A stretch of 45,548 nucleotides of DNA, taken from Solobacterium sp. Its GTDB lineage: Bacteria; Bacillota_I; Bacilli_A; Erysipelotrichales; Erysipelotrichaceae. The translations under genes were made by a program, and so were the position numbers. Within the stretch, counting starts at the first letter, position 1. The number at the start of each line of letters is the position of its first letter. The stretch is from positions 1 through 45,548 of the forward strand of contig JAFYHC010000044.1 of NCBI GenBank assembly GCA_017539385.1. The letters run 5' to 3'. Below are positions 27,237 to 45,548 of this stretch, piece by piece. The notes under the pieces were generated by a model. It was not told the origin of the DNA, did not search any database, and was given only the letters and a program-made list of their open reading frames with translations.

Positions 27237-30200
27237 TTACCGCTTATCCTTCAGCAATGCCGCTGCTTTGAGAAGTTTGCCACAGCGGGTATAGGCCGCA
27301 TGCAGGTTGTTGAGGGCTGCCTGGGTGCGGGGATGATGCAGACCAAGGGTGCTGCGGTATGCCGCATAGACTTCTTCACCAAGAGCAGCAGAGCGCTTCC
27401 AGTCCCCGCTCAGTCCGTAATACCACATGAGATTATTGCCGGCAAACAATGTATCCGGATGGTTCTTCCCATGCAGGCGGATGCGTGTCTCATAGACTTT
27501 CTGCAGGCATTCGACAGCCTTCTTCGGCTGGCCGCTGTTGCCATAGGCAACTGCCAGATTATTCAGCGTCAGAAGCGTACTGGGATGTTCATGGCCGATC
27601 ACCGCACAGCGTTTCTGATAGACTTTCTCCCCTTCGGCGATGGCACGCTGGTAATTGCCGGTATTGAGATAGCCCAGTGCCACTTCATGCAATGCCGCCA
27701 AAGTATCGGGATGGTCTGCTCCAAATACCTCATTGCGCAGTGCATAGGACTTCTGTGCCATTGCCAGGGAATTGGCATAGTCTTTGGCATTGCCATAGAA
27801 GACAGCAAGATTATTGACATACAGCATCGTACGCGGATTCTTCGGACCAAGCTTGCGCTCTGCCGCCTGCAATGCCTGCGTCTCATAGCGGATCGCATCA
27901 TTGTATCGGCCAAGATTCGAGCTGCATAATGCGATCAGATTCAGTACTTCGATCGTATCGATATGATCTTCACTAAGGATCTGGCAGTATGTGCGGTGCA
28001 GCGGCAGTGCCTGCTCAATGGCATCGCTGTAGCGGCCGCTCACATTGAGAAGACGCACCACGGCGCGGCGTGCGGTCAGTGTACGGGCATGCGTTTCGCC
28101 AAACTGTGCGATGCAGCGGCTGCAGGCAGTCTCTGCATATTCCAGTGCCATTGCATAATCACCTGTCTTTTCATAGACATCTACCAGCCGTTCCAGAGAG
28201 GCAATGGTATCCGGATGGTTTTCACCCAGGACCTCACTGCGCAGGACATAGGCATCTTCCATCTGTTCTCTTGCCTGCGTATAATTGCCGCAGTTCATGT
28301 TGTATACAGCCGCATTATTTAATGCCAGAAGAGTATCGGGATGCTTTTTGCCGAGATGCTGTGCACGCCATGCATACACTTCTTTCATGATGGGAAGTGC
28401 TTCGCGATAGCGGCCGGCATCTCCCAGGCACACACCAAGCGTATTGCGGTAATTGACAGTTACGGCATTGTCTTCCCCAAACAGTGACTTACGGCCTTCA
28501 TATGCATCTCTTGCATATTGGATGGCTTCGGGATATTTCAATGCCCGCAGCTGTGTCATAGCAAGCCCATGCAGAGCAGAATACGTATCCGGATGGGTGC
28601 TTCCCAGAATGGCCTTTCGTTTCTCATAGACACGTTTGCCCAGTGCCAGTGCTTCATCTGTTCTGCCTTCACTGCGCAGAAAGAGAGCCAATTGTGACCA
28701 GGCTTCCCATGTGTCCGGATGATCTTCACCATGACGCTTTTCAATTGCCTGTACCGCTTTGCGGGAGATTTCCGCTGCTTTGAGAAGATCTCCGTCATTG
28801 GAATAGGCAGCCGCAAGATCACGCAATGTACGCAGTGTAACGGGATGATCTTCACCCAGCAGCCGTTTTATGCCATTGTATGCTTTCTGCATATGTCCCA
28901 GCGCCGTATGGGGATCCCCGTTTCTTCCGGTACATTCCGAAAGAGTCTTCAGACTCGCATATGTTTCCGGATGATCTTCTCCGAGTACTTCCCTGTGCTT
29001 GGCATAAGAAAGCCATGCAAGTGTTTCCGCCTTGCTGTACTGCCCGTTATTGTAATAGGCATAGGCAAGATTATTCTGTGTCAGAAGTGTGCTTGGATCT
29101 TTGTCTCCGACGGTCTTCTGATACAGTTCATATGCTTTTAAAAGATACTCCAGTTCTTTATCATACTGACCGCATTTGCTGGCAAAGACACCAATGTTCT
29201 GCAGGGCTGTGATCGTTGCCTTGGCGTTATCGCCAAACAGTGCTCTTCGCTTTTCATATACCAGTCTGCCATAGGCCAGTGCCTTGCGGTACTGGCCTGC
29301 CTGGCTGTAATACACCGCAAGATCATTGATCACGCGCAGTGTAACGGCATCCTCTTTTCCAAATACCTGTTCATAGACAGGAAGGGATTCCTCCAGCAGC
29401 CGCAAAGCTTCTTCATACGACCCGGCCGACGACAGCATGGATGCATATTCGATCAGCTGGTTCAGATACTCTGCCGATGTATTCCCATTGCTTTCCAGCA
29501 GGGCATCGATCAGCTTCTTCTGCCATTTGACTGCCTTTTTATAATCCAGATCCACACCGGTGCCGCTGCGGTACATGGAGGCAAGCTTGCGCATGGCTTC
29601 ATGAAGACCGCTTTCTGCCGCTTCCGTGATCAATGTCACGCCGCGCACACGGTCTGTTTCCACATCAATGCCTTCCAGATACGCCAGACCGATCAGGAAT
29701 GTATGTACGGCATCTTTGCGGCGTGTCTGCAGCTTGAGCGCAGAGATCGCTTCCTTCAGCATATTCCGGAGTTCTGCAGCGTCCTTGCCATCTGCGCACT
29801 CCGGGATACCGGGATACTGTTTCCTGAGTTCTTCTTCATCCGTATCCTTCATGAGCACAGGGAACACAGGCTTGCCCAAGGAATGGGCAGCCGGATATTC
29901 CACATTGCGGACATAATTCTCTTCATTGATCAGATTCGGTGTTACCAGCAGTGTAAACAGTTCACTTTTATGCAGTGCCTGCTCGATCGTCGCATCAAAA
30001 TTCTCACCCGGAACCAGATACTCATCATACCAGATCGCAATATCCCGGTATTCTTCATGGGCATGGATCATGCGCATGAGTTCATTGGCATACAGTCTGT
30101 CCTTTTTCCGGTAACTCAGAAAGATATAGAAATCAAACGCATCCTGGATCCTGCGTACCGTCTCTTCCGAAACCAGTACCGATTCCAGATACTTCTTCAG

Positions 30201-30617
30201 TTTCTCTTCATATGTGATCTCGCCTTTGCCATGGGCAACACGGTCCAGAAACTGCATCGTTCCAAACTGCCTGGTATCGCTGTACAGGGCCTCCAGACCC
30301 TCTTCCATGACGATCGGAAGCACAGGGATATGATGTTCCAGTGCAAACGGAATATCCCTCTCCAGGGCCCGGGAATGGTCTGTCAGCAGGCGCAGTGTGA
30401 TCGGAATGACAAACAGGTTCATATCCCGCATATCATCCATTTCCACGTCTATGCTCATATCTTCGCCATAGCAGACAGCACAGTTTTGTGCATTCAGCAG
30501 ATCAGAGGCAATGATGTCAAAGGTATCCCTGACATCTTCCGGATGACAGGTAAAATACACTTTCGGCATTCCCTGCGGATTGGCATTTCCCTTTGTTTTG
30601 ATACACAGTCTGTTCAT
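27237..30617 (-). CDS. Large TIR-TPR repeat protein (about 17 kinesin-light-chain-type repeats)
   Basis: 1,126 residues; start MNRLCIKTKGNAN at 30617 because GGAGGG lies right before it. Residues about 18-125 look like a first TIR/SEFIR-like domain (MPKVYFTCHPEDVRDTF, then NLFVIPITLRLL). About 161-260 is a clear TIR domain: FDFYIFLSYRKKDRLYANEL, IWYDEYLVPGENFDATIEQA, LLVTPNLI. About 305-370 is Sel1-like. From about 385 on there are some 17 TPR units of 42 residues with the phrase GEDHPDTL plus LNNLAVxY, as in kinesin light chain TPRs. TIR domains can be NAD-cleaving effectors or adaptors; a catalytic Glu could not be placed with certainty. Repeats suggest binding of a ligand or partner, so a sensor-effector in immunity or signalling is possible but unproved. 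Confidence 0.8.
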   Translation of the reverse strand: MNRLCIKTKGNANPQGMPKVYFTCHPEDVRDTFDIIASDLLNAQNCAVCYGEDMSIDVEMDDMRDMNLFVIPITLRLLTDHSRALERDIPFALEHHIPVLPIVMEEGLEALYSDTRQFGTMQFLDRVAHGKGEITYEEKLKKYLESVLVSEETVRRIQDAFDFYIFLSYRKKDRLYANELMRMIHAHEEYRDIAIWYDEYLVPGENFDATIEQALHKSELFTLLVTPNLINEENYVRNVEYPAAHSLGKPVFPVLMKDTDEEELRKQYPGIPECADGKDAAELRNMLKEAISALKLQTRRKDAVHTFLIGLAYLEGIDVETDRVRGVTLITEAAESGLHEAMRKLASMYRSGTGVDLDYKKAVKWQKKLIDALLESNGNTSAEYLNQLIEYASMLSSAGSYEEALRLLEESLPVYEQVFGKEDAVTLRVINDLAVYYSQAGQYRKALAYGRLVYEKRRALFGDNAKATITALQNIGVFASKCGQYDKELEYLLKAYELYQKTVGDKDPSTLLTQNNLAYAYYNNGQYSKAETLAWLSYAKHREVLGEDHPETYASLKTLSECTGRNGDPHTALGHMQKAYNGIKRLLGEDHPVTLRTLRDLAAAYSNDGDLLKAAEISRKAVQAIEKRHGEDHPDTWEAWSQLALFLRSEGRTDEALALGKRVYEKRKAILGSTHPDTYSALHGLAMTQLRALKYPEAIQYARDAYEGRKSLFGEDNAVTVNYRNTLGVCLGDAGRYREALPIMKEVYAWRAQHLGKKHPDTLLALNNAAVYNMNCGNYTQAREQMEDAYVLRSEVLGENHPDTIASLERLVDVYEKTGDYAMALEYAETACSRCIAQFGETHARTLTARRAVVRLLNVSGRYSDAIEQALPLHRTYCQILSEDHIDTIEVLNLIALCSSNLGRYNDAIRYETQALQAAERKLGPKNPRTMLYVNNLAVFYGNAKDYANSLAMAQKSYALRNEVFGADHPDTLAALHEVALGYLNTGNYQRAIAEGEKVYQKRCAVIGHEHPSTLLTLNNLAVAYGNSGQPKKAVECLQKVYETRIRLHGKNHPDTLFAGNNLMWYYGLSGDWKRSAALGEEVYAAYRSTLGLHHPRTQAALNNLHAAYTRCGKLLKAAALLKDKR

Positions 30618-30687
30618 GATACCCTCCATGCATGTTTTTTCTTATTATACCCGACCATGATATCCGCATCGATATGGGCGGTAATGA

Positions 30688-35458: not shown

Positions 35459-36457
35459 ATGGGAACCAGGAAGTATTCTGAACTATCACACCACCCACCT
35501 TCCGAAGCGTCCGTTTCGGAAGACCAGACCAAATCGCTCACCTTTTCACAGATTACGACAATGTGTCTTGAATCCAAAAAAGATGCATTGAAGCAATCCA
35601 CATATAATCAGTATTGGAATCAGTGCAACAATCACCTATTGAATGAATTCGGTGATGAACCATTCTCTTCGATCACAGTAGACCAACTCAATGAACTGTT
35701 GAAGAGAAAGATGCAGGAAGGCTATCAGTTCTCGACCATCATGAACCTCAGGACCATCCTGACGATGATCCTGCGCTACGCTGTACAGAACAAGATACCA
35801 ACCGCAATCACCGGTCAGCTCTTTACGCCCCGCTATCATGTGAAGGAAATGGAAGTATTCACCCGCTGGGAACAGAAGCAGATCGAAAACCTGCTCTATG
35901 ACCGCAAGGATGACTACATACTTGCCATCTTCCTGTCCATGTACTGCGGACTCCGTATCGGTGAAGTATGTGCCCTTCAATGGAAGGACATCCACTTCCG
36001 CAACGGCACCCTGTCTGTTACAAAGACCCTGTGCCGCATCCAGGACTCCGGCAATACGGCCAAGAAGACCTATGTTGCCTCAGTATTACCGAAAACGCAC
36101 AGTTCCATACGTACCATTCCGATTCCGACATTTCTGATGCCCCTGCTTCGGGCGCATCGAAAAAAAGATACTGATTATGTGATTACAGGCACCGAATGCA
36201 GTATGGAACCCCGTACCTGCCTCAGGCGTTACAAGACGATTCTCAAACATGCCAATGTATCCAATTACTCGTTTCACGCACTGCGTCACACCTTTGCGAC
36301 ACGCTGCGTAGAAACCGGCATGGATCCAAAGTCCCTCAGTGAGATCCTTGGACATTCCACCGTCAAGATCACTCTTGACCGCTATGTCCACCCTTCCATG
36401 GACTATAAGAGAACACAGATGAATCGTCTGAAAAAAGTTACAAAACTAGACGTCTGA
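35459..36457 (+). CDS. Tyrosine-type site-specific recombinase
   Basis: 332 residues. N-terminal SAM-like core-binding domain (about 30-125, LTFSQITTMCLESKKDALKQ) and the catalytic domain with Arg in MYCGLRIGEV (about 165), His-x-x-Arg in FHALRHTFATR (about 270), His in LGHSTV (about 298) and Tyr in LDRYVHPS (about 308). All five catalytic positions are present. AGGAGG lies 16 bases before the ATG, unusually far, and no other start is available because a TAA is in frame. The next gene is the giant surface protein. No phage structural, excisionase or tRNA-attached att site is seen nearby, so it is not evidently a prophage integrase; DNA inversion or rearrangement at the surface locus is possible. 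Confidence 0.9.
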   Translation: MGTRKYSELSHHPPSEASVSEDQTKSLTFSQITTMCLESKKDALKQSTYNQYWNQCNNHLLNEFGDEPFSSITVDQLNELLKRKMQEGYQFSTIMNLRTILTMILRYAVQNKIPTAITGQLFTPRYHVKEMEVFTRWEQKQIENLLYDRKDDYILAIFLSMYCGLRIGEVCALQWKDIHFRNGTLSVTKTLCRIQDSGNTAKKTYVASVLPKTHSSIRTIPIPTFLMPLLRAHRKKDTDYVITGTECSMEPRTCLRRYKTILKHANVSNYSFHALRHTFATRCVETGMDPKSLSEILGHSTVKITLDRYVHPSMDYKRTQMNRLKKVTKLDV

Positions 36458-36563: not shown

Positions 36564-39500
36564 ATGAAGCATTCCAGCAAGTTTCTGTCTGTATTGATGG
36601 CTCTTATGATGGCGTTCTCAGTCGTCATGGTTCCTGCACGGGCAGAAGAAAACGAACCAGAAGAAGGATCTGGCCAGGGTTGGAGAAAATGGGTCGAGCA
36701 GCTTGAGGGTGAACCTGAAGAAGCGATGACTGTAATTCCAGGAACTGAGCCGGAACCTACACCGGAGCCGTCACCGGAGCCGGTTGTCATTGATGAACCG
36801 GAGTATACTTCCGGCACTCTGACGTACGAAACAGAAGATTATACAATTACAGTTACATATCCTGCAGAAGCAAAAGTATCTGCTGATACACAGCTTGCTG
36901 TCAGAGAGATTCCTTTTGAATCTGAAGAATATGCAGGCTATTACGAAAAGACGTTAGAAAAACTGAACGAAAATGCAACATTTGGCAATGAACTTGAACC
37001 GGATACCCGTAAAGGTATTGCGTCTGCTGTATATTTTGATGTTACTCTCGTAAAAGATGGACAGGAATATGAACCTGAAGCAACGGTTGATGTAAATATT
37101 ACATTTAATAACGGAGGTCTGCCGCAGTTTGACGGCGAAGAGACGAAAGTCATCCACTTTGCGGATGCGGGTACAGCTGTTATTGAAGAACCGGACCTGG
37201 AAGTCGGAACTTCAGAAGAAGGTCTGAATGAAGGAATGCCGGAGGGTGATCTCGTTAATGATTTTGTTTATACACAGGATAGTTTCTCTGTGATCGGCGT
37301 ATTCACAACAGACAAGTATATCGGAGATATTGTTGTCAGCGAATATGCTCCAAAACTGAACGCTGAAGGCGACACCATTGCCGCAGATAAAACCGTTACT
37401 GACAGCGATAACGATGGCATCTATGATCTTGAACTCTATGTCATGGGTAATTCCGATACTTCATCCAGCCAGACCGTTGAAAAGACCAACGTAATTCTTG
37501 TTATCGACAGATCCGGTAGTATGAAAGATATGACATATTCAGTATTCACTTCTTCGGATACATATGATTCTAATGCTGAGTATTATTTTAAATACAATAA
37601 TAATTATTATCGCGCATATTATGTTAATGGCGTGTGGGGTTATTACGATTATAGCTACACTTTCAATCCGTTAGGAACTGGAACAACGATCTATTTAGGT
37701 CAGACACGAATGGATGCCACAAAGAAAGCTGCATGTTCTCTGGTTGATAAACTGCTCAGCAACAATAAAAATGAAACTGGTAAAGAGGATATTATTGAAA
37801 TATCTTTGATCTCATTCGCAGGAACAAACAAAAATGCAAATGATGCGACAATTGTTGTTCCTTACGACAGCACAAACACAATAAATGCAACATACCTTAA
37901 AAACCAAATTAATAATATCAATGCAAACGGTGCAACAAACTGGCAAGCTGCTCTTCAGAAAGCAAAGTCTGAAGCAGACAATTTCAAGCGCGATGAAGCG
38001 AATGAATCTGTTGCGGTCATCTTCTTAACAGATGGAATGCCAACATTCTATAATGGCGGAGGTACCGGTTATGAAGATCCAATTTCCAATGTTCAGACAT
38101 GTTGGGATAAAGCAAAAGATGATGCACGAGCTATCGCCGGCAATGCTTCTTATACGCTTTACAACATCTTTGCATATGGAAACGGCTCAGATTATCTGAA
38201 ATCTTTAACGAATTATGCGTATGGACGTAATGGAAGCTGGAATGACACAACAGATACGACATACACAAATAAATATTTCTTTGATGCAAAGGATACCTCT
38301 GCTCTTGAAGCTGCGTTTGAAACAATCATTCACAATATCAGCAACAGTGTTGGTTACGGTGGTGTAGCAGTAAGTGACGGCGTAAACCTTGGCGCAACGA
38401 ATACTTCTGCTACAGTCGGCGGAACCATCAATCCGGAAGAATTCACTTACACGGTATATGACGGTACAAAAATCGTTTATTCAGTCAAGTTTGATCACAA
38501 CGGAAATAACGCAACATTCACGATCAACGGCCAGGAATATACAGCAGCCTGCACAACGGTAAATACACCGATCAAAAACGAAGCAGGTACTGTAGTAAAG
38601 ACGATCACTTCGAAAGTTGCCACAGTCACAGTCGACGGCGTCGAATATAAAATGTCCCCTGCTACACTGGATAACGCAGGTAAGATCGAATGGGAACTTG
38701 CAGGACTTGGTATCCTTGACAACTACAAGTATGCTCTTTCAATGCATGTATGGCCGAATCAGATGTCTTACGACATCGCAGCTGACATGAATAACGGAAT
38801 CTATCCTGACCTCGAGACAGCAATCGCAGCTTATGGTATTACAGATGAAGCCGAGATTGCTAAGATCAAGGCATCCATTGAAAAGGAAGCAGACGGCAGC
38901 TACGCGGTATACACAAACTATGAACAGTCTGTAAGATACTACGAAACAGATGAACAGACTATTGATGGTCAGACAACCACAACATACAGTGATGAAAAGA
39001 CTAAGCCTTTAACAAAACCGAACCCAATTCCTCTTACAGGTTCCACGATTCCGATGGAGAAGAAATGGGGAAGTGATCTTGCGATTGCAGAGCTTCAGGA
39101 ACTGGTATTTGGAAAGAATTCTACCTACACAGGATATACTGTTACACTCAAGCTCAACAGAGATGGTAAAGAATATACGTCTTACACATTCCCGAAACTG
39201 AATGATGCAGGACAGCCGGTCGATGCTGACGGCAATGTTAGCACCGATGCTACGAAGCTTGTATGGCACCAGGATGCAGCTATCTCCCCAGGACGTCTTA
39301 CAACAAAAGATCCGGGCGGAAAAGATTATAAAACTGTAAAACTGACAGGAAAGACATTGAATGGTGTCGATATTTCCGGCACATACTATGTTGTATCTGA
39401 TGGTCATGAATACACGATCGAAGAAGCTGCTGGTTCTGACCTGCACTTTGAGTTCAGCACAGATGTTTATCATCCGATGCTCGTGGATGGAAAACTGATG

Positions 39501-41147
39501 AATGTCAAAGTGGTAACAAATGATAAAGGCGAGATCGTAGATGGTTCTGATGCTGAAGTGATCAATCCGGAAATGACTAGCGTTTATGCAACAAATACCC
39601 TGAAGGGTGGCTTGAATATCCGCAAAGTTGTTACGATCGAAGATCAGAAAACAGAAGTTAAGGACTGCACAGATGAGTTCACATTTGAAGTAACTCTCAC
39701 AAAAGACGGTAAGCCTTATGGAACACCGGCTGATCAGTACAGTACAACGAAACCTGCTGAGTATGATGAGGAAGGTCACGGCGGATGGAGCTATGATCAA
39801 AATCATGACTTCTATTACAAGTCTGGTTTTTCTGCATTCAACATTTACAGCGGAAAAGATGCTGACGGCAATAGAACAAGACTGGATCGTAGCTGGATCC
39901 CGGCCGATGGGAAACTGACACTTACAATGCCGGCTAATGGTGAGATCCGTGTTGTTAACCTTCCGTCCGGTACAGAATATACAGTCAAGGAAGTTGTTGG
40001 TGAGAGCGGTGAATATCAGTACTTCAAAACAGTTTCCAGCATCAAGGTTGGTGAGAATGATGCAGGCGAAGATCTGATCGAAGTTGATACGGAGCCTGTT
40101 ACAACAACCGACAATACTGTTACAGGTACAATCAGAGGAAACAAAGCTAATCTCGAAACGTACTACAACTGGGCAGCAAACTTCTATGTTTACCACTCCA
40201 GTGATAACACAATTGAAAAGATTTCCTTCTCTGACAGCCGCGTCAAAGGCAAATATGATGCTGAAACAAAGAAATACACATATGACTTCAATCTCGTAAA
40301 TGAGACAAAAGAAGGCTATCTGTATGGCGGTTACTATAAAGCATATGGCGGACAGGTGATGCAGGATGACGAAATCATCAAAGCCACTTACTCTGAAACT
40401 ACTGCTGATATCAAAATGGAATATGTTGCTGTACGAAAAGATGGCTTATGGGCTAAGGATTCTGATACATCTGTCAAGTATGATGGTTCCAAGTTCAATG
40501 CCTGGAAAGCAGCAAATGCATATACAGCAGACAAAGGTACTGCAATGCATCCGGCCAGCAGCAAAGTCTACTATCTGAAGGAAGTACCGGACAGCTATCT
40601 GAGACCGTATATCGAGATCGTCTATGATTCCTATCATGTTGAAAATGGAGAAAAGGACTATCCGATCGTGCAGCTCCACCTGATTACTGCTGTTGACGAC
40701 GGCAACTACAGAGAAGCAGGTATCTATTACGACGGCAGTGCATATAAAAACTCCGGAAAGCTCTCTTCAACATTGAAAATTACACTGGCAGATGGAACAA
40801 CTGAAAAACTGACAGCGAAGAACGTATTCAACGGAAAGAAATATCCGGATAATAAGCCGATTTCTGTTCCGAGAGGTTATCTCTCCGCAATTAACATGAC
40901 AAAAGAGTTTGCAGGCTTCGAAGAAGGCAAGAAATTCTCCATGACTCCATACTTCGTCACACTGGATGGTGTAGATGTTAACGGCAAGCCGGATGGTGTC
41001 AAAGTACATGGTATTGTGGACAGAATTGTCGATGTTGGAAATAAGAAGTATGTTGCAGGAGAAAACAAGACCGGAATTGCTCCTGGTATCTACTCAACAG
41101 ACACAGTTGCTGACACTTATGAAAAACGCAGTGGCAGAGTGAAATAG
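36564..41147 (+). CDS. Giant secreted VWA/Cna-B-like surface protein (1,527 aa)
   Basis: Signal peptide 1-27 (LSVLMALMMAFSVVMVPARA). Residues 37-63, beginning GQGWRKWVEQLEGEPEE, are shared exactly with the next surface protein; then a Pro/Glu linker (PEPTPEPSPEP). A VWA domain at about 308-585 has MIDAS ILVIDRSGSM and FLTDGMPTFYN, with a Tyr/Asn-rich insertion (NNNYYRAYYVNGVWGYYDY). Later come Cna-B/SpaA-like modules, for example from about 1013 (LKGGLNIRKVV, with LPSGTEYTVKEV). Similar architecture is known from pilus-tip adhesins. But the C-terminus (VADTYEKRSGRVK) has no LPxTG, no membrane helix and no charged tail. Start set by AGGAGGGGG. Codon use is more AT-rich than in the housekeeping genes. 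Confidence 0.87.
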   Translation: MKHSSKFLSVLMALMMAFSVVMVPARAEENEPEEGSGQGWRKWVEQLEGEPEEAMTVIPGTEPEPTPEPSPEPVVIDEPEYTSGTLTYETEDYTITVTYPAEAKVSADTQLAVREIPFESEEYAGYYEKTLEKLNENATFGNELEPDTRKGIASAVYFDVTLVKDGQEYEPEATVDVNITFNNGGLPQFDGEETKVIHFADAGTAVIEEPDLEVGTSEEGLNEGMPEGDLVNDFVYTQDSFSVIGVFTTDKYIGDIVVSEYAPKLNAEGDTIAADKTVTDSDNDGIYDLELYVMGNSDTSSSQTVEKTNVILVIDRSGSMKDMTYSVFTSSDTYDSNAEYYFKYNNNYYRAYYVNGVWGYYDYSYTFNPLGTGTTIYLGQTRMDATKKAACSLVDKLLSNNKNETGKEDIIEISLISFAGTNKNANDATIVVPYDSTNTINATYLKNQINNINANGATNWQAALQKAKSEADNFKRDEANESVAVIFLTDGMPTFYNGGGTGYEDPISNVQTCWDKAKDDARAIAGNASYTLYNIFAYGNGSDYLKSLTNYAYGRNGSWNDTTDTTYTNKYFFDAKDTSALEAAFETIIHNISNSVGYGGVAVSDGVNLGATNTSATVGGTINPEEFTYTVYDGTKIVYSVKFDHNGNNATFTINGQEYTAACTTVNTPIKNEAGTVVKTITSKVATVTVDGVEYKMSPATLDNAGKIEWELAGLGILDNYKYALSMHVWPNQMSYDIAADMNNGIYPDLETAIAAYGITDEAEIAKIKASIEKEADGSYAVYTNYEQSVRYYETDEQTIDGQTTTTYSDEKTKPLTKPNPIPLTGSTIPMEKKWGSDLAIAELQELVFGKNSTYTGYTVTLKLNRDGKEYTSYTFPKLNDAGQPVDADGNVSTDATKLVWHQDAAISPGRLTTKDPGGKDYKTVKLTGKTLNGVDISGTYYVVSDGHEYTIEEAAGSDLHFEFSTDVYHPMLVDGKLMNVKVVTNDKGEIVDGSDAEVINPEMTSVYATNTLKGGLNIRKVVTIEDQKTEVKDCTDEFTFEVTLTKDGKPYGTPADQYSTTKPAEYDEEGHGGWSYDQNHDFYYKSGFSAFNIYSGKDADGNRTRLDRSWIPADGKLTLTMPANGEIRVVNLPSGTEYTVKEVVGESGEYQYFKTVSSIKVGENDAGEDLIEVDTEPVTTTDNTVTGTIRGNKANLETYYNWAANFYVYHSSDNTIEKISFSDSRVKGKYDAETKKYTYDFNLVNETKEGYLYGGYYKAYGGQVMQDDEIIKATYSETTADIKMEYVAVRKDGLWAKDSDTSVKYDGSKFNAWKAANAYTADKGTAMHPASSKVYYLKEVPDSYLRPYIEIVYDSYHVENGEKDYPIVQLHLITAVDDGNYREAGIYYDGSAYKNSGKLSSTLKITLADGTTEKLTAKNVFNGKKYPDNKPISVPRGYLSAINMTKEFAGFEEGKKFSMTPYFVTLDGVDVNGKPDGVKVHGIVDRIVDVGNKKYVAGENKTGIAPGIYSTDTVADTYEKRSGRVK

Positions 41148-41162
41148 CAGGAGGTTAACAAA

Positions 41163-41381
41163 ATGGGTATTGAAGGTGGTTTAGTTTTATCTCCAGAAGA
41201 ATATGCTAAATGGAAAGCAGAGAAACCTCAAGAATTCGCTGTATATGAAGAATATAGCTATCAGGATGAAGATGGCAACTGGGTTCTTGAAGAATGGCCT
41301 GAATGGATGGATGATGGTGATCCGACAAACGGACCGTTTGACTTCGCATTAAATCCTTCACAGAGGCATATCGGCTGGTAA
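41163..41381 (+). CDS. Acidic 72-aa peptide, candidate substrate of the modification genes
   Basis: Starts MGIEGGLVLSPEEYAKWKAE and ends FALNPSQRHIGW, after a textbook SD (AGGAGGTTAACAAA). Very acidic, rich in Trp, Tyr, Glu and Asp; no signal peptide, membrane helix or Cys. It sits 15 bases after the giant protein and before a terminator-like hairpin that would let it be made in excess of the enzymes behind it. This is the layout expected of a precursor peptide, with the C-terminal part (FDFALNPSQRHIGW) as possible core, but no cleavage or modification motif can be read, so the role is only inferred. No family recognised. Confidence 0.7.
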   Translation: MGIEGGLVLSPEEYAKWKAEKPQEFAVYEEYSYQDEDGNWVLEEWPEWMDDGDPTNGPFDFALNPSQRHIGW

Positions 41382-41393
41382 GTTAAGTTAGTA

Positions 41394-41426
41394 AGAATGG
41401 GGATGGTCAACATCCCCATTCTATTT
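41394..41426 (+). terminator. Strong hairpin between peptide and kinase genes
   Basis: AGAATGGGGATG pairs perfectly with CATCCCCATTCT (12 bp, GTCAA loop) and is followed by ATTTTG. The T run is short, so it probably acts as a partial terminator, reducing expression of the downstream enzymes relative to the peptide. Confidence 0.75.
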
Positions 41427-41434
41427 TGCAAAAG

Positions 41435-42166
41435 ATGAAATATTATAACGGAATATTTGGAACACAGAATATATGCATTGGACTTCGCCAGGAAAGTACT
41501 CTGAAGTATTTTGGTAATTGGCTTACACCTGCGGATGATTATGGTTCTGCTGTTATGGTACAGGATGAGGATTTCAAAATGTATGCCGAGAAGTGGAAGA
41601 TACCAGACAATGCATATACAGAATATGCACTCAGTGTTTTTCGGGTATGCGATGTACTCCTCACGAATAAGTCATGCGTGTTTCATGGCGCAGCATTTCA
41701 CTGGCATGAAAAAGCATTCCTGTTTACTGCCCCCAGCGGGACAGGCAAAAGCACACAGTTATTTCACTGGTGCAGTCTGTACCGGAATGATATACAGATC
41801 ATGAACGGCGACAAACCGATCCTTGCTGCAGAAAATAATGAAATTACTGTTTACCCTTCTCCATGGAAAGGAAAAGAAGGTCTTGGAAATGATACGCTGA
41901 AGGCACCCCTTGCCGGCATCATTTTTCTGGAACAGGGATCAAAGAACCATATCGCAAGAATGCCGATATCAAAAGCAGTAAAAAGTCTGCTGCCAAGAAT
42001 ATTAACGACTGCAGATAATACAGAAATCGTTAAGAATGCTGGCAGAATGCTGGAACAAATACTGCTGTCGGTTCCGGTATGGAAATTGACCAATACCGGA
42101 GATCTGGATTCTGCAGTATTAACGCACGATACATTGGAAAAGGAATTATTCAGCGATGAAATATAG
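41435..42166 (+). CDS. HPr-kinase-like protein of the peptide-tailoring type
   Basis: 243 residues from ATG at 41435 (MKYYNGIFGTQNIC); TTG three codons earlier is possible, and no SD is visible, which suggests low translation. Walker A is in FTAPSGTGKSTQL (about residues 98-110), the NGDKPIL block holds the catalytic Asp region, and VYPSPWKGKEG follows. It is half the size of true HPr kinase and lacks its N-terminal domain and C-terminal loop. Such short HprK homologues are found in lasso-peptide clusters, where they phosphorylate the precursor's C-terminal Ser. The peptide gene lies just upstream; the PqqD-like gene overlaps its end by 11 bases. Confidence 0.82.
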   Translation: MKYYNGIFGTQNICIGLRQESTLKYFGNWLTPADDYGSAVMVQDEDFKMYAEKWKIPDNAYTEYALSVFRVCDVLLTNKSCVFHGAAFHWHEKAFLFTAPSGTGKSTQLFHWCSLYRNDIQIMNGDKPILAAENNEITVYPSPWKGKEGLGNDTLKAPLAGIIFLEQGSKNHIARMPISKAVKSLLPRILTTADNTEIVKNAGRMLEQILLSVPVWKLTNTGDLDSAVLTHDTLEKELFSDEI

Positions 42167-42437
42167 ATTTCAGGACGGAATTGTATATACAAAAATAGCT
42201 AAGGTCCATCTCCTTGTGGCTACACGGAAAGCGTGGGACCGCTATCCTGCGATAAAAGAAGTTAATGCATTGCAGGGAACGTTCTGCGAAGGTATAAGCC
42301 GCGGCATGGAGGAAGAAGAAATCGTGCAGGCGATCCTGCTTCCGGAACGTATGAGTAGAGATTCTGTTCGTAAACGTCTGTCAGTGTTTATACATAAGAT
42401 GCTGGATGAACGATATATTGTGCCGGAGGAAGAATGA
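42156..42437 (+). CDS. PqqD-like peptide recognition protein
   Basis: 93 residues, start MKYRFQDGIVYTKIAK. The three-stranded N-terminal part, then VNALQGTFCEGISRGMEEEEIVQAIL matches the PqqD/RRE pattern (residue blocks for a gate-like winged-helix that binds precursor leader peptides). In lasso clusters the B1 protein is of this family. No radical SAM enzyme, cyclase or protease is present to be its usual partner, so here it would serve the kinase, the nucleotidyltransferase or both. Overlaps the kinase by 11 bases and the next gene by 4. Confidence 0.78.
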   Translation: MKYRFQDGIVYTKIAKVHLLVATRKAWDRYPAIKEVNALQGTFCEGISRGMEEEEIVQAILLPERMSRDSVRKRLSVFIHKMLDERYIVPEEE

Positions 42438-43630
42438 ACAGCGAAAGAGCACTTCTTTTGCAGTGTCTGAAAGATTTCTGCCATCATCAGAAGACAGAAA
42501 AATTCAGTGATGAGGTTGACTGGGAACGGTTTGAGAAATTGCTGCAGAGTCAGTCTCTTGGAGGTCTGGTATACCACCAGTGTGAAAAGTGGATTCCAAG
42601 GCATTTCCGGCACTTTCTACTGCAGGAGGCCTATTTCTCAGTGAACCGTCAGATTCTCTTTGAGGAGATTGCAAAAGGCCTCACAGAGCGATGTATTCCC
42701 TTCATATGCATGAAAGGATCGGTTCTGCGTGAGTACTACCCTGTTAAGGAATTACGGACAATGGGTGATATCGACTTCATCATACATACGGAAGACCGTG
42801 AGGCTGTAGATTCAATGATGTGCAGTGATCTTTGCTACAACAAATTTGTAGATAACCACGCTGTATGGACATACTACATCAAAGACTATCAGATCGAAGT
42901 ACATGATCATATGTTCTATGAACATCTTACAAATGACTTTGATTATCAGTCGTATTTCGACAATATCTGGCATCATAAACGTTATGGATCAGTCTTTGGC
43001 TATACGTTAGAATATTTATACATACCGGAACCTGATACACATTTCCTGTATCTCATGACGCATACAGCGAAACATATTCTGAATAAGGGATCCGGATTCC
43101 GTCCGTATCTGGACATGGTACTGATGTGTCAGTCAAATGATCTGGACTGGCAATATCTGGAAAAGGAGCTGGCAAATATCTGCCTGCTCGATTTCACAAA
43201 GACATGTTTTGCACTATGTGAAGAATGGTTTGATGTAAAAATGCCTCTGGAACACGGGAAAATCGATCCGGTGTTCCTGAAGCAGATTACAGATAAAACA
43301 TTCCATGATGGAATCTTCGGCCTTGACAACGAACAGAATGCAGGTGCCCATACAGCGAAGGAAATTGAGCGGTCAAAAGGAAATTACCTGTTAGGATCCC
43401 TGATGATAATTATTCGGCTGCTGTTTCCCCCATATCGGGATATGCAGCTGATCCCCTGGTATTCCTTTGTGGATGGACGGCCATGGCTGATGCCTATTGC
43501 ATGGGTTTATCGCTGGTTCTATTGCATCACACACAAACTGAAAAGCAGTTTTCAGAAATTGAGTGAGCCGGTACGGCTTCGAAAAACGATCAAACAACGC
43601 GAAATATATATTAAGGATTGGGGCTTATAA
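42434..43630 (+). CDS. PF14907-type nucleotidyltransferase
   Basis: 398 residues. The signature region FICMKGSVLREYYPVKELRT, then MGDIDFIIHTEDRE, holds the nucleotidyltransferase Asp pair; later LYLMTHTAKHILNKGSGFRPYLD is the usual C-terminal block of the uncharacterised family NTP_transf_5. In several lasso-peptide clusters (for example the pseudomycoidin-type) such a gene accompanies the kinase and modifies the phosphorylated peptide. GGAGGAAGA precedes the start; overlaps the PqqD-like gene by 4 bases. The last part (KLKSSFQKLSEPVRLRKTIK) is very basic and may bind membranes or nucleic acid. Confidence 0.83.
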   Translation: MNSERALLLQCLKDFCHHQKTEKFSDEVDWERFEKLLQSQSLGGLVYHQCEKWIPRHFRHFLLQEAYFSVNRQILFEEIAKGLTERCIPFICMKGSVLREYYPVKELRTMGDIDFIIHTEDREAVDSMMCSDLCYNKFVDNHAVWTYYIKDYQIEVHDHMFYEHLTNDFDYQSYFDNIWHHKRYGSVFGYTLEYLYIPEPDTHFLYLMTHTAKHILNKGSGFRPYLDMVLMCQSNDLDWQYLEKELANICLLDFTKTCFALCEEWFDVKMPLEHGKIDPVFLKQITDKTFHDGIFGLDNEQNAGAHTAKEIERSKGNYLLGSLMIIIRLLFPPYRDMQLIPWYSFVDGRPWLMPIAWVYRWFYCITHKLKSSFQKLSEPVRLRKTIKQREIYIKDWGL

Positions 43631-43650: not shown

Positions 43651-43869
43651 ATGAAAAAGACAATTCTTTGCATGCTTGTATTTGTTCTGCTGTTTGCCGG
43701 ATGCAGGAAAAAGGATACACACGCTTCCGGTCAGGCTGGATCAGGTATGGATACTTCTGCCTTTGAACCCGGTACAGAATCTGCAGAAGAGCCTGCACCG
43801 GAGCCGATGGAAATAGAGGAAGAGACCGAAGTTGAATTGGAACCCGGTCAGGAAACTACCGGATTTTAA
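43651..43869 (+). CDS. Small lipoprotein, 72 aa
   Basis: Start MKKTILCMLVFVLLFAGC at 43651, an upstream in-frame ATG overlaps the previous gene without SD. Lipobox LFAGC with Cys at residue 18; after it a short linker and a Pro/Glu-rich acidic tail (EEPAPEPMEIEEETEVELEP). No folded domain visible. It is 21 bases after the nucleotidyltransferase and so probably in the same operon. Resembles membrane-anchored spacer proteins; function unknown. Confidence 0.75.
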   Translation: MKKTILCMLVFVLLFAGCRKKDTHASGQAGSGMDTSAFEPGTESAEEPAPEPMEIEEETEVELEPGQETTGF

Positions 43870-43928
43870 CCCTGTTCACACTTTGTTAATATGCACAGCA
43901 TACCAGGTGCATGTACAATGATATACGT

Positions 43929-44975
43929 ATGAAGGTACGTGTATTTTGCAGCATTACCATGATTGCGGTACTGGTCCACAGTACCGCTTTTCCAATTGCC
44001 GCAAAAGATGAGCCTTCCCCTCCCGTTCCTCAGGAATATCAGGAACTGACGGATCCCATAGCTCCTGCTTCCACTCCCAGTCTGCACACAGATCAAATAC
44101 CTGTATCTGTTCGACAAATAGATAAGCTGATTGATTATATACAGAAGAATGGGATTGCGTCAGAAGATGGCAAATGTCTCTATCTCTATGATATCCTCTC
44201 TGCCCCTTCTGAGATCTTATTGACATATTATCCGGATACAGATACGATCCAGTATCTCTCCGGCAGACATATAGCAGAAGAAGATGGTACAGAGATTACA
44301 AAAGCCTGCAGTATTACATATCACATAACAGAGGATACCAATGAGCCTGCTGCGTGTATCTATCGGTATAACGATGCAGAAGATCACGCGGTATATTACG
44401 CAGATGACTTTGATCTGCATGAGTGGCATATAACAGATTCTTTGCGCTTCCACGATGAAAACGGTATTGTACAGAAAGCAGTTTTCACCAGAGACCTTAA
44501 CGATACTCTGAAGGAATCCATCGAAGCATTAAACGGATGGATGCTCACGACAGCCCCGCAAACCGATGTTTACTCTCTCAATGAACTGGGATTCATCCAT
44601 TATGCAGATGCTTCTCAGAAGGCAATAGAAGACTTTGTAGAACATTCCTATTCCACTTGCTTTAACCGTTCTGCTGACCGTGATGGACTGCTGTATTGGG
44701 CATCTCATCTCTATACACAGCAAACTGCCCCGCAGGATCTCTTATCCATCTTTCTGCAAAGTCCTGAATACATAGAGCGCAATCAGAACAATACAGGCTT
44801 CATCCTGACACTCTATCAGGCATTCCTGGACCGCTATCCCGATCCAGAGAGTCTTGCGGAATGGCTGCATATGCTGGAGAACGGAATACAGAGAGAAGCT
44901 GTCATCGGTGGATTTGCGGACAGTGCAGAGTTTGATGAGCTGCTCCGAAAAAAGCATTTATACGAATTGAAATGA
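43929..44975 (+). CDS. Secreted protein with C-terminal DUF4214 repeats
   Basis: 348 residues, start MKVRVFCSITMIAVLVHSTA at 43929 with a signal peptide cut about AFPIAA-KDE. No obvious SD, and ATG TAC six codons before is possible. The middle is unassigned. Residues about 220-330 carry two DUF4214 units: SYSTCFNRSADRDGLLYWAS, then FLQSPEYIERN, and YQAFLDRYPDPESLAEWLHM, then GFADSAEF. DUF4214 occurs in surface or secreted proteins of S-layer-like and glycan-handling type. It ends with a terminator and is followed by the second surface protein gene. Confidence 0.78.
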   Translation: MKVRVFCSITMIAVLVHSTAFPIAAKDEPSPPVPQEYQELTDPIAPASTPSLHTDQIPVSVRQIDKLIDYIQKNGIASEDGKCLYLYDILSAPSEILLTYYPDTDTIQYLSGRHIAEEDGTEITKACSITYHITEDTNEPAACIYRYNDAEDHAVYYADDFDLHEWHITDSLRFHDENGIVQKAVFTRDLNDTLKESIEALNGWMLTTAPQTDVYSLNELGFIHYADASQKAIEDFVEHSYSTCFNRSADRDGLLYWASHLYTQQTAPQDLLSIFLQSPEYIERNQNNTGFILTLYQAFLDRYPDPESLAEWLHMLENGIQREAVIGGFADSAEFDELLRKKHLYELK

Positions 44976-45233: not shown

Positions 45234-45548
45234 ATGAAAGAAACAAAAAAAGTCTTTTCATTCCTGATGGCCGTCATGATGATGTTCTCCATCATCACTG
45301 TGCCGGCACGTGCGGAAGGAACTGACGAACCAGAAGAAGGGACTGGTCAGGGCTGGAGAAAATGGGTCGAGCAGCTTGAGGGCGAACCTGAAGAAGCAAT
45401 GACTGTGATTCCTGGCACAGAACCTGCACCAGCACCGTCATATCCTGCTATCAATTTCAGCGATGTGGCGGTTGAAGGAAGTGACATTATAGTAAATGTC
45501 GAAGCACCGGAAGGAGCTTTACCGGAAGGCACAGAGATATCCGTAAAG
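45234..45548 (+). CDS. Second secreted surface protein, partial (runs off the window)
   Basis: 105 codons visible, start MKETKKVFSFLMAVMMMFSI after CGGAGGGGGAAATC. Signal peptide to about residue 27 (VPARA), then the segment 38-64 (GQGWRKWVEQLEGEPEE and so on) identical to residues 37-63 of the giant protein. After GTEPAPAPSYP the sequence is different (FSDVAVEGSDIIVNVEAPEG), of Ig-like type. So a paralogue with a shared N-terminal cassette and a different passenger. Its C-terminus and any anchor lie outside the window. Confidence 0.85.
   Translation, partial: MKETKKVFSFLMAVMMMFSIITVPARAEGTDEPEEGTGQGWRKWVEQLEGEPEEAMTVIPGTEPAPAPSYPAINFSDVAVEGSDIIVNVEAPEGALPEGTEISVK

Follow-up and report, generated by a model that had tools for sequence, protein, structure and literature searches.

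The DNA considered here, called the window, is the entire contig JAFYHC010000044.1 (45,548 nt) of Solobacterium sp. assembly GCA_017539385.1, a metagenome-assembled genome of 2.7 Mb that is 85% complete. Toward position 45548, where the contig ends, it contains the following genes and features.

35459-36457: tyrosine recombinase/integrase gene, directly 5′ of the surface gene (domain match)
36564..41147, plus strand: giant exported surface protein, 1527 aa (ORF; VWA_2 match at 4.6e-8; N-terminus signal-peptide-like by eye)
40155..41147, plus strand: conserved C-terminal domain of the surface protein, about 300 aa (alignments, kinase linkage, model with pLDDT 87)
41163..41381, plus strand: acidic 72-aa peptide, the predicted substrate (ORF)
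41358..41360, plus strand: codon of Ser66, predicted modification site at -7 from the peptide C-terminus (motif comparison)
41394..41422, plus strand: hairpin with a 12-bp stem, between the peptide and kinase genes
41435..42166, plus strand: HprK-fold kinase, K, by structural model (a TTG at 41426 starts the longest frame)
42156..42437, plus strand: PqqD-like RRE protein, R, a character taken from its relatives
42434..43630, plus strand: PF14907 nucleotidyltransferase, N (Pfam match)
43651..43869, plus strand: small lipoprotein (lipobox LFAGC by eye; C-terminal end ELEPGQETTGF)
43911-44975, plus strand: DUF4214 protein
45234..45548, plus strand: second surface protein, start only, the rest being cut off by the contig end (ORF)

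The N-terminus of the second surface protein is closely like that of the first, and K and N are each present in single copy in the genome. The integrase gene beside the surface gene may be the mark of a mobile unit. Elsewhere in the window, the minus strand at 27237-30629 encodes a protein of 1130 aa in which a TIR domain is combined with numerous TPR repeats.

The initial annotation had read a 72-aa peptide gene followed by overlapping genes for an HprK-like kinase, a PqqD-like (RRE) protein and a nucleotidyltransferase of PF14907 type, and the ORFs of the window confirm this order. Its enzyme identities also hold up, each by a different route. K is assigned to the HprK/PEPCK fold on a confident structural model, with Foldseek matches to HprK/P, and the call is by fold and not by sequence; all 50 of the 50 matches listed for K by VIA are PEPCK entries, not HprK. 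Its matches to NCBIfam models TIGR04352, TIGR04355 and TIGR04249, which cover HprK-related kinases A/B and SynChlorMet cassettes and share an HprK-like kinase domain with it, are weak (E 0.02-0.15, all far below cut-off). The P-loop residues, His84 and Asp126 are invariant in all 27 of the kinases aligned, which were drawn from 120 matches listed among 903 found. R by itself gives no Pfam match, and it is from its relatives that it is taken to be a discrete RRE/PqqD-like protein: 23 of the 35 aligned have a PqqD match and their profile matches TbiB1 and LppB. N matches PF14907 directly (127 bits), keeps D112, D114 and E155 along with every other member of its alignment (29/29), and by family is probably an LppN-like NTP transferase. 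In four of the six long N proteins scanned (L034:10490-12241, L036:7272-9803, L039:3511-5646 and L045:11104-13209) a GT2 glycosyltransferase domain is on the same chain as PF14907, a fusion which hints at a sugar as the added group.

Kinase-RRE-nucleotidyltransferase sets with no cyclase were published in 2026 and so the enzyme set of the window is of a known kind. The linear polyphosphorylated peptides, LPPs, described by Popov et al. 2026 (PMC13381572) are specified by lppA-K-B-S-D-N, comprising a kinase, an RRE protein, an NTP transferase, an SpI peptidase and an exporter with no cyclase. LppK polyphosphorylates one serine of a linear peptide, LppN had no activity in the authors’ host, the loci are often beside polysaccharide genes, and the biological roles of both LPPs and paeninodin are, according to the same authors, unknown (PMC13381572). 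The window set shares with LPPs, as that report describes them, an HprK-like kinase, a discrete RRE, an NTP transferase, a linear peptide and the lack of a cyclase. It differs from them in that its peptide has no YxxP leader and has its serine at -7, and in that no SpI peptidase was found in the 85% complete genome; with both the leader and that peptidase missing, the system is regarded as working like an LPP without being classed as one. Neither the dedicated giant surface protein nor the tail-bearing lipoprotein of the window is among the LPP features described in the portions of that report drawn on here, in the main text of which the word ‘surface’ has no occurrence (PMC13381572).

Among lasso peptides, the paeninodin kinase acts on a C-terminal serine and PsmN of pseudomycoidin adds a hexose onto phosphoserine (PMC9266682), and K, PqqD and N are reported from ruminal lasso clusters (PMC7533575). 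A kinase for a C-terminal serine, a hexose-capping N and an RRE protein, B1, are thus the points of likeness, whereas the lasso serine is the last residue and that of the window is at -7, and neither a cyclase nor a B2 protease was found with the window set. The genome, at 85% completeness, has no match to the B2 protease family (Transglut_core3, PF13471), and Asn_synthase, the lasso cyclase domain, matches only as short fragments, which, as far as this sequence goes, agrees with the earlier reading of a unit that lacks both. Since neither of the two lasso features tested, cyclase and B2, was found, the system is not classed as a lasso peptide system. A full-length Asn_synthase is within 20 kb of K in only one of 21 genomes (G697, at 11.6 kb), with short partial matches within that distance in G688, G690 and G698.

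A scan of genome contigs located kinase relatives at 517 places, the best 80 of which were retained and correspond to 79 loci. By their labels most of these are Bacillota of the gut and rumen, with a few Bacteroidales, so that the counts describe the nearest relatives and not the whole kinase family. Among 106 loci (L004-L109), many of them cut by contig ends, K is followed by R at 68, as 72 pairs, 49 of which also have N; these counts include the window itself (L004) and the duplicate L007/L055.

The surface protein encoded 5′ of the enzyme genes is one point of difference. In a count by eye, 37 of the 43 K-R pairs that have at least 5 kb of sequence upstream are preceded by an ORF 800 aa or more in length. 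Forty-nine such surface proteins were compared, omitting L029, L043, L061, L069, L072 and L074, where the nearest upstream ORF is of another kind, and L004, a second name for the window's own locus. Their C-terminal domain has the motifs YYLKEVP..YL, DD.NY and PYWVTPDG..V, clear in the 34 of the 49 that were aligned; rows too short, duplicate or divergent were left out (L006, L007, L033, L035, L036, L037, L042, L064, L066, L067, L079, L080, L084, L089 and L098). T269 and D280 are invariant in the 34. With the model of this domain, Foldseek gave no match at E 0.001 or better. Sortase-anchored surface proteins have a C-terminal LPXTG signal or transmembrane anchor; neither was flagged in any of the 49, the window’s included, and L035 has an end that is weakly hydrophobic. 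A sortase-like gene is near some loci although their surface proteins have no flagged LPXTG signal; that at L073:14251-14979, whose cluster is also in L048 and L081, is nearest to class F sortases, below cut-off.

The domain and the kinase are linked near one-to-one. In 20 genomes of relatives, chosen for presence of K, there are 29 surface domains, and 26 of these are followed on their own strand by K at a distance of at most 1.6 kb. Two of the remaining three belong to a tandem array in genome G685, ahead of a third domain that has its K, and the last is only 126 bases short of where its contig stops. The G685 arrangement (contig C87, 54607-66370; L041:1-9750) has three tandem surface domains but one kinase, which follows them, and both surface genes present in L041 have their own peptide gene 3′, the two peptides sharing SQGTSG. 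Taken from the kinase side, 26 of the 28 strong matches to K in the 20 genomes (E 1.8e-59 or better) are partnered with a surface domain, the two others being a second K that follows another and a K close to where its contig stops, and none of the 13 weaker matches has a domain. Among 195 genomes of the window’s family a K relative is present in 18, and five of these 18 (G000, G051, G058, G134 and G135) carry the domain, with K just downstream in all five; four of the five had supplied rows to the domain model that found them. Linkage of the K-R-N set to a giant surface protein and its domain, with the peptide belonging to that protein, the hairpin and the tail lipoprotein, was not found in print; the enzyme set itself is not new. 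The earlier suggestion of a linear-peptide system tied to surface display is, with the recurrence of K-R-N and the domain-kinase linkage, supported in outline.

The peptide gene of the window starts 15 nt past the surface gene with AGGAGG ahead of it. Forty-five K-adjacent peptides were compared, leaving out L007/L055, one genome in duplicate, and loci where no small ORF was clear. Within their first 28 residues 27 of the 45 have a [YFW]xxPx leader motif, versus 2.9 expected from shuffles, and 17 have an acidic stretch resembling an EF-hand or dockerin loop, versus 4.9 in shuffles; peptides with such a loop include those of L038, L044, L054, L060, L058 and L048. The window peptide, with no leader motif in its first 28 residues, belongs to a class marked instead, counting back from the C-terminus, by Gln or His at -6 and Ser at -7. 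This type takes in eleven sequences (the window, P0121-P0123, L031, L032, L038, L044, L054 minus strand, L060 and L171), in a group drawn up with the serine motif itself and in which P0121 shares 96% identity with the window. When loci are grouped independently, by an N that shares at least 39% identity with that of the window, there are 11, and a peptide with the Ser and Gln/His pattern is present at eight of the ten that are readable (8/11 overall). The exceptions are the plus strand of L054, with a leader-type peptide that has no Ser at -7, and L035, with no clear peptide; the locus on the minus strand of L039 is cut before the peptide. The serine at -7 is conserved in most of the window-like loci. 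In the 45 peptides as a whole the pattern occurs nine times, versus 0.1 in shuffles, with one of the nine (L041) in the leader class. By analogy with the paeninodin kinase, which likewise acts on a C-terminal serine, Ser66 is the predicted site of modification, by phosphorylation.

Between the peptide and kinase genes the window hairpin folds with a z of -4.5 against dinucleotide shuffles. With mononucleotide shuffles the corresponding gap folds with z below -2 at 37 of 39 loci, a count which includes the window and the L007/L055 duplicate, versus 13 of 31 control gaps between same-strand genes. The hairpin is predicted to be a leaky terminator or a processing element, and its position would favor the peptide and the surface protein in abundance over the enzymes. 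No clear Shine-Dalgarno sequence is seen by eye ahead of the likely ATG of K, about a dozen bases past the hairpin (41422-41437), and translation of K may be limited by this poor start context or by proximity to the hairpin.

On the other side of the enzyme genes, the tail of the small lipoprotein is conserved near K. The tail type, that is, a hydrophobic N-terminus in the same protein and a C-terminus with G at -2 and then F, L, N, G, W or E, is present in 30 of 54 small proteins near K versus none of 31 elsewhere; a strict version of the lipoprotein pattern is present at only 27 of 68 loci. The tail has some resemblance to the end of the companion peptide, GQETTGF versus SQRHIGW in the window and GQGVAGG versus SQGVVFG in L038, and in the window lipoprotein there is Gly where the peptide has Ser at -7. 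Anchored at the C-terminus, the likeness has a Fisher p of 2e-5 over six window-clade loci, a value which, as the serine and tail patterns were both picked after inspection of the data, is descriptive only, as are the other p-values for them, the sequences compared being also related by descent. The same anchored comparison has no such likeness at five of 14 loci (L067, L073, L079, L084 and L098), and the window tail scores 21 against the peptide of L031 and 9 against its own. Unanchored, the signal is modest (Stouffer 3.2; own versus swapped partners, p 0.025), and for the window alone it is z 1.0, p 0.20.

The reading favored here, with a probability of about 0.5, is that this is a cyclase-free peptide-modification operon that serves one giant surface protein, the tagged peptide docking on the C-terminal domain with the lipoprotein as tether. 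R would likely present the 72-aa peptide to the modifying enzymes, K is predicted to phosphorylate Ser66 near its C-terminus, and N would likely add a cap to that phosphate, either a sugar or a nucleotide group, the GT2 domain of four of the six long N proteins fitting sugar addition. The hairpin would keep enzyme levels below those of the peptide and surface protein. As the peptide gene follows the surface gene by 15 nt and precedes the hairpin, its product is likely a stoichiometric partner and not a free antibiotic. Once modified, the peptide would be exported and dock on the conserved C-terminal domain of the surface protein that it accompanies; the lipoprotein tail may bind the same site and so keep the surface protein at the membrane, with the peptide deciding between retention and release. 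The specific form of this, a surface-display switch in which the capped phosphopeptide competes outside with the similar lipoprotein tail for the C-terminal domain, is unlikely as it stands.

The main weakness of the mechanism is that the exporter and leader peptidase are missing for the window clade. The DNA examined from the nearest relatives (L031, L032, L035, L038, L044, L054 and L060) has no member of the ABC-exporter cluster, and the window has no MsbA-like exporter from 36564 to the contig end at 45548, where readable DNA stops, so that export is a guess there. The window’s genome, 85% complete, likewise has no match to the SipW-type leader peptidase model, TIGR02228.

A possible though doubtful alternative is that the peptide, phosphorylated and capped, is a secreted RiPP of LPP type, a signal or an antimicrobial, with the surface protein a passive neighbor or unrelated cargo and the lipoprotein an immunity protein or receptor. 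The core enzymes are as in LPPs (PMC13381572). An ABC-transporter cluster member is present at 25 of 59 loci, 20 of these being full length (at least 540 aa); the single member scanned has MsbA-type exporters as its best matches, which fall short of the cut-offs. An S26-like peptidase cluster is present at five of the 59, with one scanned member SipW-like, again below cut-off, and polysaccharide-type genes are nearby at up to 15 (a tyrosine autokinase cluster at 15/59, Cps4B-like genes at 8/59). The transporter and the polysaccharide genes, together with the [YFW]xxP leaders of 27 of the 45 peptides, extend the likeness of these relatives to LPPs as described in PMC13381572. However, a near one-to-one linkage of domain and K, and three domains in tandem before one K, are unexpected of a passive neighbor.

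That linkage, and the invariance of T269 and D280 in the 34-sequence alignment, would also suit the notion that the surface protein is itself the substrate, its C-terminal domain being modified by K and N in the cytosol before export with the peptide as adaptor or chaperone for R; but the peptides keep either a fixed Ser at -7 or a leader of lasso and LPP type, far more often than in shuffles, and so this is quite improbable. A decayed and no longer functional lasso cluster, its cyclase and protease gone, brought to mind by the ruminal clusters with K, PqqD and N, is most improbable given the same gene order at 49 K-R-N places with active-site residues conserved, and a full-length Asn_synthase near K in a single genome of 21.

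On the reading of an operon that serves its own surface protein, the tie of the enzyme set about one-to-one to a recognizable domain means that the question of what LPPs do becomes a test of binding and localization. The domain, the companion peptide and the tail lipoprotein together are a marker by which further systems of this sort could be located among Bacillota of the gut and rumen.
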